Position numbers and translations under genes: made by a program
Notes under the pieces: model-generated
The model's database searches: none
Told to the model about the DNA's origin: nothing
Seen by the model: the letters and a program-made list of their open reading frames with translations, nothing else
From: Alphaproteobacteria bacterium
GTDB taxonomy: Bacteria; Pseudomonadota; Alphaproteobacteria; Caulobacterales; Aquidulcibacteraceae
DNA: 64,000 nucleotides
Direction of reading: 5' to 3'
NCBI GenBank assembly: GCA_018969015.1
Contig: JAGWZE010000018.1
Span: forward strand, 1-64,000
Shown: positions 4,800-7,689 of the stretch, piece after piece
How the letters are laid out: the number at the start of each line of letters is the position of its first letter
Numbering within the stretch: position 1 is the first letter of the stretch

Positions 4800-5936
4800 A
4801 TGAGCCACCCTAAGCCACGCCTCACGGTCCTGGGAATCGAGACGAGCTGCGACGAAACGGCAGCCGCGATCGTACGCGTCCCCGCGGCCGGCGTCCAATC
4901 AGCGGATGGCGGGGCGGGCGGGGACGGCTTCGATGGCCCCGCCGAGATCCTGGCCGACGTGGTCTGGTCGCAGATCGAGGACCACGCGCCCTATCGCGGC
5001 GTGGTGCCCGAAATCGCCGCCCGCGCCCATGTCGAGAAGGTGGACGCCGCCGTCGCCGCCGCCCTGGCGGAGGCCGGCCTGGGCTTTGGCGATCTCGATG
5101 GCGTCGCCGCCACCGCCGGCCCGGGCCTGATCGGCGGCGTGATGGTCGGGCTCCTGACCGGGAAGGCCATCGCGCTGGCCCATGGGCTCCCGCTCATCGC
5201 GGTCAATCATCTCGAGGGCCACGCCCTGTCGCCCCGGCTCGGGGCGGCGACGCCCTTTCCTTATCTCCTGCTGCTGGCCTCGGGCGGGCACTGCCAGTTC
5301 CTCGCCGTCGACGGCCTCGGCCAGTACCGCCGCCTGGGCTCGACGATCGATGACGCCGCCGGCGAAGCCTTCGACAAGACCGCGAAACTTCTCGGGCTCG
5401 GGTTCCCCGGCGGCCCGCTGGTCGAGGCCGCCGCGCGGGGCGGGACCGCCGCCCGCTTCGATCTGCCACGCCCGCTCGTCGGCCGACCAGGCTGCGATTT
5501 GAGCTTTGCCGGCCTCAAGACGGCCGTCGCCCGGCAGGCCGCGGCGCTTGCGCCTCTGTCCCCGAAGGACCAGGCCGATCTTGCCGCCGCGTTCCAGGCC
5601 GCCGTCGTCGACGTGCTGGCTGATCGCACCCGCGCCGCCATGCGCCTCGCGCCGGACAGCCGCAGGCTGGTGCTCGCCGGCGGCGTCGCCGCCAATCAGG
5701 CCATTCGGAAGGCGCTCGAAGCGATTGCAGAATCGCAGGGCTGGAGCTTCGCCGCGCCGCCGCTGCGCCACTGCACGGACAACGCAGCCATGATCGCTCT
5801 CGCAGGTGCGGAAAGACTGCGCGCAGGCCTCGACGATCCCCTCGAAGCGCCGGCGCGCGCCCGCTGGCCCCTCGACGCCGCCGCCGCGGCCGCCGCCCCG
5901 GTCCACAAGCCGGGGCGCAAAGGCGCGAAAGCCTGA
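4800..5936 (+). CDS. tsaD: tRNA threonylcarbamoyladenosine transferase TsaD
   Basis: 378 aa. Transfers the threonylcarbamoyl group to A37 of ANN-decoding tRNAs in the TsaB-TsaD-TsaE complex. The start at 4800 puts the conserved [10 protein letters not shown] strand close to the N-terminus; an in-frame ATG at 4758 would add 14 unconserved residues. The metal-binding HLEGH motif and the ASKH-fold blocks [14 protein letters not shown] and LAGGVAANQ are visible. About 23 residues near position 30 look like a variable insert. The C-terminus is an alanine/lysine tail. The neighbourhood with hemC and gpsA is common in Alphaproteobacteria. Confidence 0.96.
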
Positions 5937-6040
5937 AGCGTCCTCGAACGCTCGTCGAAGGGAGATCCGGTCGAGCGAGGCGTGTGCGCCGAGTGCTGCG
6001 CCGCCTCGAAATTGCCCCATAAATGAATGGGCGGCCCAAA

Positions 6041-6071
6041 AGCAAAAGGCCTGGTCCTTTCGGACCAGGCC
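6041..6071 (-). terminator. Intrinsic terminator after tiny gene A
   Basis: A perfect 10-bp stem (6048-6057 with 6062-6071) closes a four-base loop that reads GAAA on the minus strand, followed there by TTTTGCTTTT. It lies 29 nt past the stop codon of the 38-aa gene at 6100-6216 and so ends that transcript. Confidence 0.9.
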
Positions 6072-6099
6072 CCCAGCTTCGACACCGTTTCCGGGCGGC

Positions 6100-6216
6100 T
6101 TACGCCATCACGCGTGCAGCCACCGAAACGAGCGGCGCCGAAGCGGCAGCGACGAGAACGATCGCGACCGCAATGGTGAAGAGACGAAACGTCGCCGTCG
6201 GTTGGGAGTTCGGCAT
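6100..6216 (-). CDS. Tiny single-TM protein A (38 aa)
   Basis: 38 aa, too short for standard gene callers. A perfect GGAGG stands 5 nt before the ATG (minus strand GAAGGAGGCTCCC then ATG). A polar ten-residue head with TFRLF is followed by one alanine/valine-rich membrane helix, a central AP, and the ending VMA. Aligned to the 37-aa gene at 6619-6732, about 15 of the last 30 residues are identical (shared FRL, VAAA, AP, VMA). It has its own upstream gap (6217-6380) and its own terminator. Function unknown; a membrane micropeptide is inference. Confidence 0.72.
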   Translation of the reverse strand: MPNSQPTATFRLFTIAVAIVLVAAASAPLVSVAARVMA

Positions 6217-6277
6217 GGGAGCCTCCTTCAGTTTTGGCCGGCGGGATTTCGCAAGTGCGAACGCCGACCCGGCTTAG

Positions 6278-6292
6278 ATGACGCTTCGTCAT
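6278..6292. promoter_or_regulatory. Palindrome upstream of tiny gene A
   Basis: ATGACG-CTT-CGTCAT lies 62 nt upstream of the 38-aa gene A start, in the only gap that can hold its promoter. A second looser inverted repeat, GCTTTG at 6323-6328 with CAAAGC at 6345-6350, surrounds TGCAT repeats in the same gap. Either could be an operator; no regulator is identified. Confidence 0.35.
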
Positions 6293-6380
6293 GGCTGCCG
6301 CCAGGGGCGCATTGGCGCCTCAGCTTTGCATTTTTGCATGCATCCAAAGCGGGGGCCGACCGCATCGTCGGCCCGCCAAA

Positions 6381-6412
6381 GAAAAAGGCGCGAGACCCGA
6401 AGGTCCCGCGCC
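6381..6412 (-). terminator. Intrinsic terminator after tiny genes C-B
   Basis: An 11-bp stem (6387-6397 with 6402-6412) has a UUCG tetraloop on the minus strand and a single G-U wobble, which is a mismatch on the plus strand, showing it works leftward. It is followed on the minus strand by TTTTTCTTT. It lies about 40 nt after the stop of the gene at 6454-6570. Confidence 0.9.
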
Positions 6413-6453
6413 TCGAGGCGGCGCCGGGAAGAGAGCGTGCGGCGCGGAAGGGA

Positions 6454-6570
6454 TCAGAAGAACAGCTTCGCCGCTTCCACGAGCGGGAGGGCGACGAAGG
6501 ACAGGGCGGCGACGGCCAGCAGCACGTTGCCGAACTGGTGGAAGGTGCGGGCGGCGGAGCGAGCGGTCAT
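6454..6570 (-). CDS. Tiny single-TM protein B (38 aa)
   Basis: 38 aa, ATG at 6570 preceded by GGAGAG eight bases upstream (minus strand CTGGAGAGTTCCCC). A basic head (TARSAARTF) leads into one hydrophobic helix (about residues 15-31) and ends in AAKLFF. It is the most divergent of the three tiny proteins but shares the TF-plus-helix-plus-PLV plan with protein A. It lies 48 nt downstream of gene C and shares its terminator, so C and B form a two-gene unit. Function unknown. Confidence 0.68.
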   Translation of the reverse strand: MTARSAARTFHQFGNVLLAVAALSFVALPLVEAAKLFF

Positions 6571-6618
6571 GGGGAACTCTCCAGTCGGAAGGGGCACGAG
6601 AGGGGCGGACGGTTGGCC

Positions 6619-6732
6619 TCAGGCCATCACGGCGCCGGCGAGCGACAGGACCGGCGCGGCCGCAGCGGCCACCGCGAGGGCGCCGAACGCCAGGGCGATG
6701 AGGCGGAAGATCGGGGAGCGGGCGTCGGTCAT
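6619..6732 (-). CDS. Tiny single-TM protein C (37 aa)
   Basis: 37 aa from ATG 6732, preceded by GGAGAT; longer in-frame starts up to 6816 lack a ribosome binding site and would add a non-conserved head. A short polar head with IFRL is followed by an alanine-rich membrane helix, a central AAP and the ending AGAVMA, closely matching protein A. Upstream on the minus strand TTGCAA and CATATA are separated by 17 nt and may be the promoter. Function unknown; a paralogue of protein A by sequence. Confidence 0.7.
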   Translation of the reverse strand: MTDARSPIFRLIALAFGALAVAAAAAPVLSLAGAVMA

Positions 6733-7037
6733 GGGGTCATCTCCGGGGCAGTTCGAGCGGCGAAGCATCGCCATGACCCCTATATGGCAGAACCCTGATC
6801 CGATTGCAATGAACAAAATGATTTTTATTCAGCAGTCATCCTGCGGGCGCGAAACGCAGGCGCGGAAGGGGCGCGCGGCGCGGTGCGCACGGCTTTGGCA
6901 GGGCGGGGGAAATGGCCGCGGACGCTGGCGGCCGGCCAGGCCGGCGCCGTCGGGCGCGTCGGGGTGAGCGGAGTCGCGTGTTCAGGCGATACTGGCCGCC
7001 AGGGGCGGTAGGTCCGGACAGGGAACGCGGCGGCGCC
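6733..7037. other. Gap between tiny genes and TetR gene
   Basis: 305 bases without a supported gene. The left end is the leader and probable promoter of tiny gene C and includes the only notably AT-rich stretch nearby (about 6785-6840). The right part is GC-rich with no clear hairpin. It is the downstream region of the leftward TetR gene. Confidence 0.5.
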
Positions 7038-7634
7038 TCAGGCGGTGCGCGTGTAGAGGCCTTTGAACAGCAGGTCGAGCACGCCTTCGAGCTCGCGCTC
7101 GAGCTTTGCGAGCGTCAGCTGTGAGAACAGCTGCGGGAACGCAAACTTCGCCGTGGCGCTTTGCAGCATTTCAGCGACGAAAACGTAGTTATCCGAGCGC
7201 ATGAAGACGCCCGCTTCCGCGCCTTCCTCGAGCAGCGCAGCCATGAAGACGCGCTCGTGGGCCAGCTGTTCGTTGGCGAACAGGGGGCGTTCGACGTGAA
7301 GAACCTCGGCAACCTCGAGAATCTTGGCGTTTTCAGCCACGAGGTGGAAGTTGTCCCGCATCCGCTTGAACAGGATCTCGCGCAGGCGCGCGTCGGCCGG
7401 CTGGTCCTTGCGGCGGGCGATGGCGGCCAACTCGAACTGCATGTCGGCGTAATGCATGCGCGCCATCGCCTCGGCGATGTCGATCTTGGCCTCGAAGAAG
7501 CGATAGATATTGCCCGGGCTCATCCCGCAATCGGCGGCGATCTCGGCCATGGTCGTCTTCCCGTAGCCGTAATGCTTGATCCGATGCATTGCGGCGTGAA
7601 GGATGCGCTCCCGGGTGGCTGTCTTTTCGTCCAT
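7038..7634 (-). CDS. TetR/AcrR-family transcriptional regulator
   Basis: 198 aa. Start at 7634 gives the standard TetR N-terminus (TRERILHAAMHRIKHYGYGKTT) with the helix-turn-helix MAEIAADCGMSPGNIYRFFEAK at about residues 29-50; the remaining all-helical domain binds an unknown ligand. It is divergent from gpsA with 55 bp between starts. A perfect 14-bp palindrome in that gap is the obvious operator, implying autoregulation and possible control of gpsA. The ligand and regulon cannot be read from the sequence. Confidence 0.93.
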   Translation of the reverse strand: MDEKTATRERILHAAMHRIKHYGYGKTTMAEIAADCGMSPGNIYRFFEAKIDIAEAMARMHYADMQFELAAIARRKDQPADARLREILFKRMRDNFHLVAENAKILEVAEVLHVERPLFANEQLAHERVFMAALLEEGAEAGVFMRSDNYVFVAEMLQSATAKFAFPQLFSQLTLAKLERELEGVLDLLFKGLYTRTA

Positions 7635-7656: not shown

Positions 7657-7670
7657 ATTGAACGTTCAAT
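7657..7670. promoter_or_regulatory. 14-bp TetR-type operator
   Basis: ATTGAACGTTCAAT is a perfect palindrome in the 55-bp gap between the divergent TetR and gpsA genes, the size and position of a TetR-family operator. It covers the ATG at 7669, one reason to prefer the GTG at 7690 as the gpsA start. Confidence 0.7.
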
Positions 7671-7689
7671 GAAGAATTTAGGCGGTTCC

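Follow-up and report, generated by a model that had tools for sequence, protein, structure and literature searches.

A family of very short, single-helix membrane micropeptides driven by a CRP-type regulator, with a branch of three genes controlled by a TetR regulator, is our best overall explanation for the DNA studied here, at a probability of roughly 0.6. The three genes lie in the window, that is, the whole stretch of 64,000 nucleotides that was analysed. A sequence-only reading had noticed this trio; it had not foreseen that the family is far larger and that most copies lie behind a CRP-type promoter that the trio lacks. That there is a real family with a shared promoter appears very likely from the sequences compared.

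The trio: position, layout and coding signal

Reading of the ORFs and of their ribosome-binding sites bears out three tiny minus-strand genes of 37, 38 and 38 codons, as first described, all with a GGAG/GAGG-type Shine-Dalgarno sequence in front.

6619..6732, minus strand: first micropeptide gene, 37 aa (P0001), from the ORF list and translation
6740..6744, minus strand: Shine-Dalgarno GGAGA of the first gene, read from the sequence
6454..6570, minus strand: middle micropeptide gene, FHQFG-type subfamily, 38 aa (P0002), from the ORF list and translation
6385..6414, minus strand: intrinsic terminator (TTCG loop), 3' of the first two genes, from the hairpin scan
6100..6216, minus strand: last micropeptide gene, 38 aa (P0003), from the ORF list and translation
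6045..6074, minus strand: intrinsic terminator (GAAA loop), 3' of the last gene, from the hairpin scan

The likeness seen earlier between the first and last proteins stands at 15 identities, counted by hand across their final 29 residues. Both of the proposed terminators are present, with TTCG and GAAA loops and U-rich tails. The terminator scan of positions 5500-7500 gives exactly two hairpins, against an average of 1.8 in shuffles of the region, and is by itself not significant. Recurrence in relatives is better terminator evidence: as judged by eye, 13 of 16 aligned sequences have a GC-rich hairpin that separates the first gene from the last. One helix had been claimed for each protein, and this is found for the first, the only one modelled, whose structure prediction gives a single helix at residues 7-36 (mean pLDDT 87). 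According to the ORF lists, the order hemC - tsaD - trio - TetR - gpsA is shared by the window and three relatives; TetR excepted, these are presumed names, given by eye from the sequences. The last unit of the trio is convergent with tsaD.

Scanning the named genomes with an alignment of the TetR protein yielded 22 loci: 16 with TetR at 66-79% identity, five at 47-48%, and L113, which reached a contig end and was dropped. Orthologues of the first gene lie behind TetR in 16 of the 16 closer loci, and those of the last gene are present in 15. Orthologues of the middle gene occur in two of these loci (L092 and L094), and 3 of the 60 genomes from the bacterial family contain a match to it. No trio-like gene was seen in the five loci with TetR at 47-48% identity (L108-L112); L112 has one 24-aa hydrophobic ORF. 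At about 2490-2610 of L039, the position of the middle gene holds a short ORF that is not hydrophobic and starts with MSARTWSEL.

Differences among orthologues of the first and last genes pile up at third codon positions. By codon position, the pairwise differences are 0.36/0.20/0.44 for the first gene (11 sequences, pN/pS 0.59) and 0.35/0.16/0.51 for the last (16 sequences, pN/pS 0.53). Near-neutral synonymous/non-synonymous ratios had been named as evidence that would count against the proposal; those obtained depart from neutrality, and the constraint is only moderate (pN/pS 0.53-0.64) with strongly diverged synonymous sites. A column-shuffle test was applied to the first and last trio genes, to the set of 30-aa copies from the window's own genome presented below, and to 74 distinct 30-codon genes. 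For the first and the last gene each, the frame-0 sum-of-pairs protein score is above all 300 shuffles, and the true frame scores higher than the other five. The observed protein score is reached by 0 of 300 shuffles of the own-genome set and by 0 of 100 for the 74 genes. Given synteny of the first gene in 16 of 16 loci and a coding signal above every shuffle for both the first and the last gene, we regard the trio ORFs, from sequence comparison, as real genes.

A larger, lineage-specific family

A search with the 37-aa first protein retrieved the last gene of the window (E 0.018) and, with weak E-values, more short ORFs of the same genome. A profile search of this genome gives at least 21 matches at E ≤ 0.1, and the 19 copies outside the window all begin with ATG and are exactly 30 aa long. 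Against the A1 profile, of which both are rows, the first and last genes of the trio reach 38.5 and 37.4 bits; independent evidence for their membership comes from the single-sequence search and the syntenic orthologues. The middle gene, which is not a row of this profile, is absent among its matches and represents a separate, narrow subfamily. As to the proposal of a duplicated regulatory micropeptide family, duplication, dedicated terminators and coding constraint are upheld, and a regulatory action of the peptides is unproven.

A search across the order had also been suggested. Of the order's 299 genomes searched, 40 have a match at E ≤ 0.001, calculated per genome, and among the matches listed all belong to the window's own family. 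The 299 genomes searched include, without a match, 20 listed members of this family and 239 unlisted genomes of the order. Three genomes (G008, G018 and G074) have a single match each, which may be chance or a lone gene. The highest copy number among the matches listed is 25, in G029 and G076, where at most 27 candidates were scored.

Length is constant to a large degree, with 30 aa in 78 of 92 copies. All 63 distinct 30-mers have A10 and A25, 62 of them carry K or R at position 3, and neither D nor E occurs; conservation shows weak helical periodicity (P 0.03-0.07). A lipoprotein reading was dropped, C11 being found in just 25 of the 63 peptides. Six proteins gave nothing above cut-off in Pfam/NCBIfam, and PDB sequences contain no family above cut-off. 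A Pfam search on 32 members returned one stray match (E 0.009, one member). We describe the family as lineage-specific micropeptides with a 30-aa core and a 37-42-aa long form, presumably located in the membrane through a single helix.

The conserved end of the peptide could also be read as a processed export product, in which a Sec signal sequence is cleaved after A25 and a C-terminal pentapeptide A-x-I-V-A is freed. The pre-Phr peptides of Bacillus offer a comparison for such an exported and processed signal peptide. The invariance of A25 (63/63) would suit this, as would the conservation of A26, I28, V29 and A30 (59, 53, 58 and 58 of 63) and a proline ahead of the tail in 26 of 63. However, 28 of the 63 peptides have N, H or M at residue 23, which would be the -3 position, and signal peptidase I disfavours these residues there; moreover, the Pfam match to PhrC_PhrF has an E-value of 0.1, under cut-off. 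On balance, we find processing of this kind improbable.

A shared promoter in front of the 30-aa units

Upstream regions were compared for a sample of 92 copies that make up 66 transcription units; it draws on 13 genomes of five genera, was picked by protein match and not by promoter, and comprises part of all copies. A dyad, GTGNC-N4-GTCAC or GTGAC-N4-GNCAC, is located 77-102 nt before the start codon in 65 of the 66 units. The unit without a dyad is represented by only 58 nt of upstream DNA, and one G017 locus is counted twice, which gives 64 of 65 distinct units. A -10 element (TAnnnT) starts 22 nt past the dyad in 61 of 65. With the transcription start inferred in this way, the dyad centre falls near -41.5, the position at which the site is centred in class II CRP promoters. 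The 30-aa units would thereby fit a class II CRP-type promoter geometry.

The background frequency is 5 dyads per 169 kb, with none in the 64-kb window. The window's genome (3.4 Mb) has 20 perfect dyads versus 0 of the reversed control. Eighteen precede family members, namely 17 30-aa units and one 53-aa relative, the other two look like chance, and an 18th 30-aa unit of this genome has a GTGCC variant of the dyad. The strict full promoter pattern is present in 21 of 60 genomes, the control in 0 of 60. The 53-aa relative (L116 2798-3100, G000 C63:58097) is divergent, with one hydrophobic stretch, a proline-rich tail, and dyad and -10 placed as in the 30-aa units.

The promoter was also used to predict genes. 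Of the 21 dyads in G009 and G016 that are explained by no listed copy, 20 were read. Thirteen have no -10 and look like chance; among the seven with a -10, two hit contig ends and four of the other five lead to hydrophobic ORFs of 30-37 aa (L204, L213, L217 and L221). The fifth testable promoter, L216 (G016 C4:85992-86005, minus strand), is followed by a larger protein of secreted type, which may be a target of the regulator outside the micropeptides. Since one of the five testable promoters serves such a protein, the regulon is not wholly private.

Between the promoter and the Shine-Dalgarno sequence, the leader folds in 62 of 65 units; whole leaders have a mean z of -1.34, and 60% are below -1. 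This folding (mean z about -1.3), and the fact that close copies are alike at the level of the cassette, could indicate that the units function through dispersed small RNAs carrying a 5' hairpin, the ORF being incidental or secondary as in a dual-function RNA. A CRP-controlled dual-function RNA with a 29-aa ORF is known, according to the available part of its description (PMC8672173). However, the constraint is frame-specific, the length of 30 aa is kept in the great majority of copies (see above), stem sequences vary between copies, and no Rfam family reaches gathering score in ten related loci, the window locus giving four sub-threshold matches only. An RNA as the main product therefore seems a poor candidate.

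The likeness between near-identical copies of the window's genome is limited to a stretch running roughly from the dyad to the stop codon. It covers -86 to +92 in the L084 pair (97%) and -90 to +88 in copies 2 and 3 of L079 (96%). Copies in other genomes are alike from a start at -35 to -102 as far as +95 to +305, partly from tandem pairing. A copy step of the size of one unit is plain in the window's genome only. In L079 and L084 the near-identical units are about 1 kb apart and their flanks are unrelated.

Tandem pairs account for 26 of the 66 units, and these peptides may be compared with type I toxin-antitoxin systems, in which tandem hydrophobic peptides would depolarise the membrane and antisense RNAs would restrain them. 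Besides tandem pairing, the size, hydrophobicity, positive charge and high copy number are like those of toxins of the Ldr/Ibs type; LdrD and type I systems are described in PMC8309996. In the window's genome, however, likeness between close copies stops at the stop codon, so that no conserved 3' antisense gene lies there; in other genomes it continues to +95 to +305. A sigma-70 scan of positions 5500-7500 on both strands, ill-suited to this lineage, found no promoter-like site, and 32 members have no match in PADLOC, a library of defence systems. We judge a toxin-antitoxin role to be unlikely, if less so than the export and RNA readings.

A candidate CRP-type regulator

The window's genome encodes two proteins over the HTH_Crp_2 cut-off, plus three weaker matches. 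One of the two carries the helix GITIETVSR and is FNR-like; the other, our candidate regulator, combines the recognition helix GASREKVNR with a cNMP-binding domain (PF00027) and PF13545. The FNR-like and CRP-like assignments are our own reading of the helices. The closest solved relative of the candidate is the Crp/Fnr-family protein 3d0s, which we take to be Crp of Mycobacterium tuberculosis, and it resembles this protein in its cNMP-binding domain, its Crp-type HTH and a GASRE-V-N recognition helix. Unlike 3d0s, it has an inferred regulon dominated by one peptide family. With 64.2 bits against a cut-off of 266 in the NCBIfam CRP model it is not a CRP equivalog; its sequence places it as a CRP/FNR-superfamily protein.

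In L078 (727-2299; G000 C63:35726-37298), a 30-aa copy with its dyad, the CRP-type gene and a class III cyclase follow each other on one strand, and a search for class III cyclases detected only this one in the genome. The copy directly upstream of the CRP gene could suggest that the micropeptides are leader (attenuation) peptides of the genes downstream. However, the units of the window end in terminators, the last one facing the convergent tsaD, and the sequences downstream of the own-genome copies differ, which leaves attenuation very improbable. The adjacency in L078 does not recur as a rule. A conserved CRP-micropeptide neighbourhood was rejected, a micropeptide unit being inside the fetched flanks of 7 of 30 CRP loci, and so was a conserved CRP-cyclase neighbourhood (1 of 30 loci by tblastn). 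In G009 a cyclase-domain match lies about 1.6 kb from the CRP gene, just beyond the stretch compared.

Co-occurrence links the CRP-type protein with the family. Its orthologues (E<1e-50) are present in 35 of 60 family genomes, all among the 40 micropeptide carriers in the matches listed (Fisher p 1.3e-11, uncorrected for ancestry, most carriers being of one genus). Among the matches listed, these 35 genomes contain 312 dyads versus 46 in the control (mean 8.9 versus 1.3), and the 20 genomes with neither the orthologue nor the micropeptides contain 48 versus 44 (mean 2.4 versus 2.2). Five genomes have micropeptide matches with no orthologue of the regulator detected (G025, G072, G008, G074 and G018), two of these assemblies being 79-83% complete. 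Dyads also turn up where the regulator gene is undetected, since these five carriers hold 24 against 6 in the control, among the matches listed. G020 and G015 have the CRP orthologue, and only trio-type genes were seen in them. Class III cyclases are found in 40 of 60 genomes among the matches listed and overlap imperfectly with the carriers (absent from G020 and G064, present in G023 and G030, again among the matches listed).

Binding of the regulator to the dyad in a cAMP-dependent manner is thus putative, with co-occurrence and helix similarity as its basis. That this CRP-type protein is the activator of the 30-aa units seems to us quite probable.

Control of the trio

None of the 33 regions upstream of trio-type genes contains a CRP-type dyad, and for this reason the trio is treated as a separately controlled branch of the family. 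The following elements surround it.

7658..7673, minus strand: own promoter core of the TetR gene, TTCATTGAACGTTCAA, with TTCATTG, by eye
7038..7634, minus strand: regulator of the TetR family, 198 aa, immediately upstream of the trio (TetR_N 6e-12, synteny)
6810..6831, minus strand: dyad TGAAYAAAAW..WTTTTRTTCA, sequence TGAACAAAATGATTTTTATTCA, likely TetR operator by the -35, from by-eye alignment
6804..6809, minus strand: candidate -35 TTGCAA, 17 nt from the -10, deduced from the sequence and unreported by the promoter scan
6781..6786, minus strand: candidate -10 CATATA, likewise deduced and unreported by the promoter scan
6278..6292, minus strand: palindrome ATGACGCTTCGTCAT, in front of the last gene; among the aligned loci it can be made out by eye in L092-L094 only
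6248..6261, minus strand: palindrome TTCGCA-N2-TGCGAA, TTCGCAAGTGCGAA, in the leader of the last gene, from a 16-sequence alignment

Palindromes upstream of the genes had been pointed out before, and TGAACAAAATGATTTTTATTCA, TTCGCAAGTGCGAA and ATGACGCTTCGTCAT are indeed there. The TGAAYAAAAW..TTTTATTCATTG element sits at the candidate -35 of the first gene. By eye, a TTCATTG core adjoins the first-gene dyad in 15 of 17 aligned sequences and is found in 17 of 17 TetR promoters. The leader of the last gene is conserved as GTTCGCAnnTGCARCATC in 16 aligned sequences. The simplest reading of these arrangements would be an autoregulated TetR repressor that also governs the first unit, and control of the trio by TetR is, in our opinion, reasonably likely.

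Comparison with known systems

AzuC, reportedly 28 aa long, is of similar size to the peptides described here. VcdRP, with a VcdP ORF of 29 aa, and AzuCR are CRP-controlled short RNAs according to the available part of PMC8672173. The likeness lies in a very short ORF on a short CRP-controlled transcript, such control being inferred in the present case. However, both of these RNAs are CRP-repressed in the same available text (PMC8672173), whereas the micropeptide units have the class II geometry of activation. Unlike VcdRP and AzuCR, the family also reaches up to about 25 paralogues per genome, among the matches listed, and its product is a predicted membrane helix.

The Ibs toxins belong to the same field of comparison, and Ldr and Ibs loci are arranged in tandem. 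Like Ldr, Ibs and Fst, the micropeptides are short, hydrophobic and helical, several of them with tandem copies; unlike them, they have a CRP-type promoter, and our sequence searches found neither a family match nor an antisense antitoxin. LdrD, of a type I system, has 35 aa in the accessible text of PMC8309996. Small coding sequences of Caulobacter crescentus have been mapped by ribosome profiling, as reported in the part of PMC4117421 available. They are of the same order and of similar size, and were missed in earlier annotation; unlike them, the micropeptide matches are confined to one family of the order, among the matches listed. A literature search, with supplements outside its range, gave no earlier report on the micropeptide family among the matches listed.

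Proposed model and significance

In the model that we propose, most members are dispersed single genes or tandem pairs built on one plan: CRP-type dyad, -10 at 22 nt, leader hairpin, Shine-Dalgarno sequence and ORF. The CRP-type activator with the SREKVNR helix most likely turns these units on jointly as cAMP rises, and the number of genes would determine how much is made of a single kind of membrane peptide, short, cationic and free of acidic residues. The trio may represent a second input to a like product. The TetR repressor next door would control the first (and middle) gene through an operator core common to its own promoter and the trio promoter, the last gene probably being under a separate conserved promoter region. 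The peptides may reside in the inner membrane and make helix-helix contacts with a membrane protein or with each other. A membrane-modulating role is a tentative suggestion, with odds somewhat short of even. Family, coding capacity, copy number, promoter grammar, synteny and co-occurrence are the parts of this picture that can be read directly from the genomes.

It is also conceivable, with low probability, that this is a peptide system of Gram-negative bacteria in which some twenty dispersed copies under a cAMP-CRP switch encode a 30-residue precursor cut on export, the invariant A25 and the tail constituting a peptide signal. If so, copy number would set the strength of the signal, and the likeness from dyad to stop codon in the window's genome would be the trace of a still-multiplying cassette.

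Descriptions of small membrane proteins in bacteria usually concern single genes. Here, one micropeptide is amplified to about 20 genes in a genome, in a largely private regulon and within a single family of environmental bacteria, and the system has a second branch that is probably under TetR control. This raises a directly testable question: why a cell would carry as many as twenty genes that encode a 30-residue membrane peptide, and what cAMP may mean to these bacteria.
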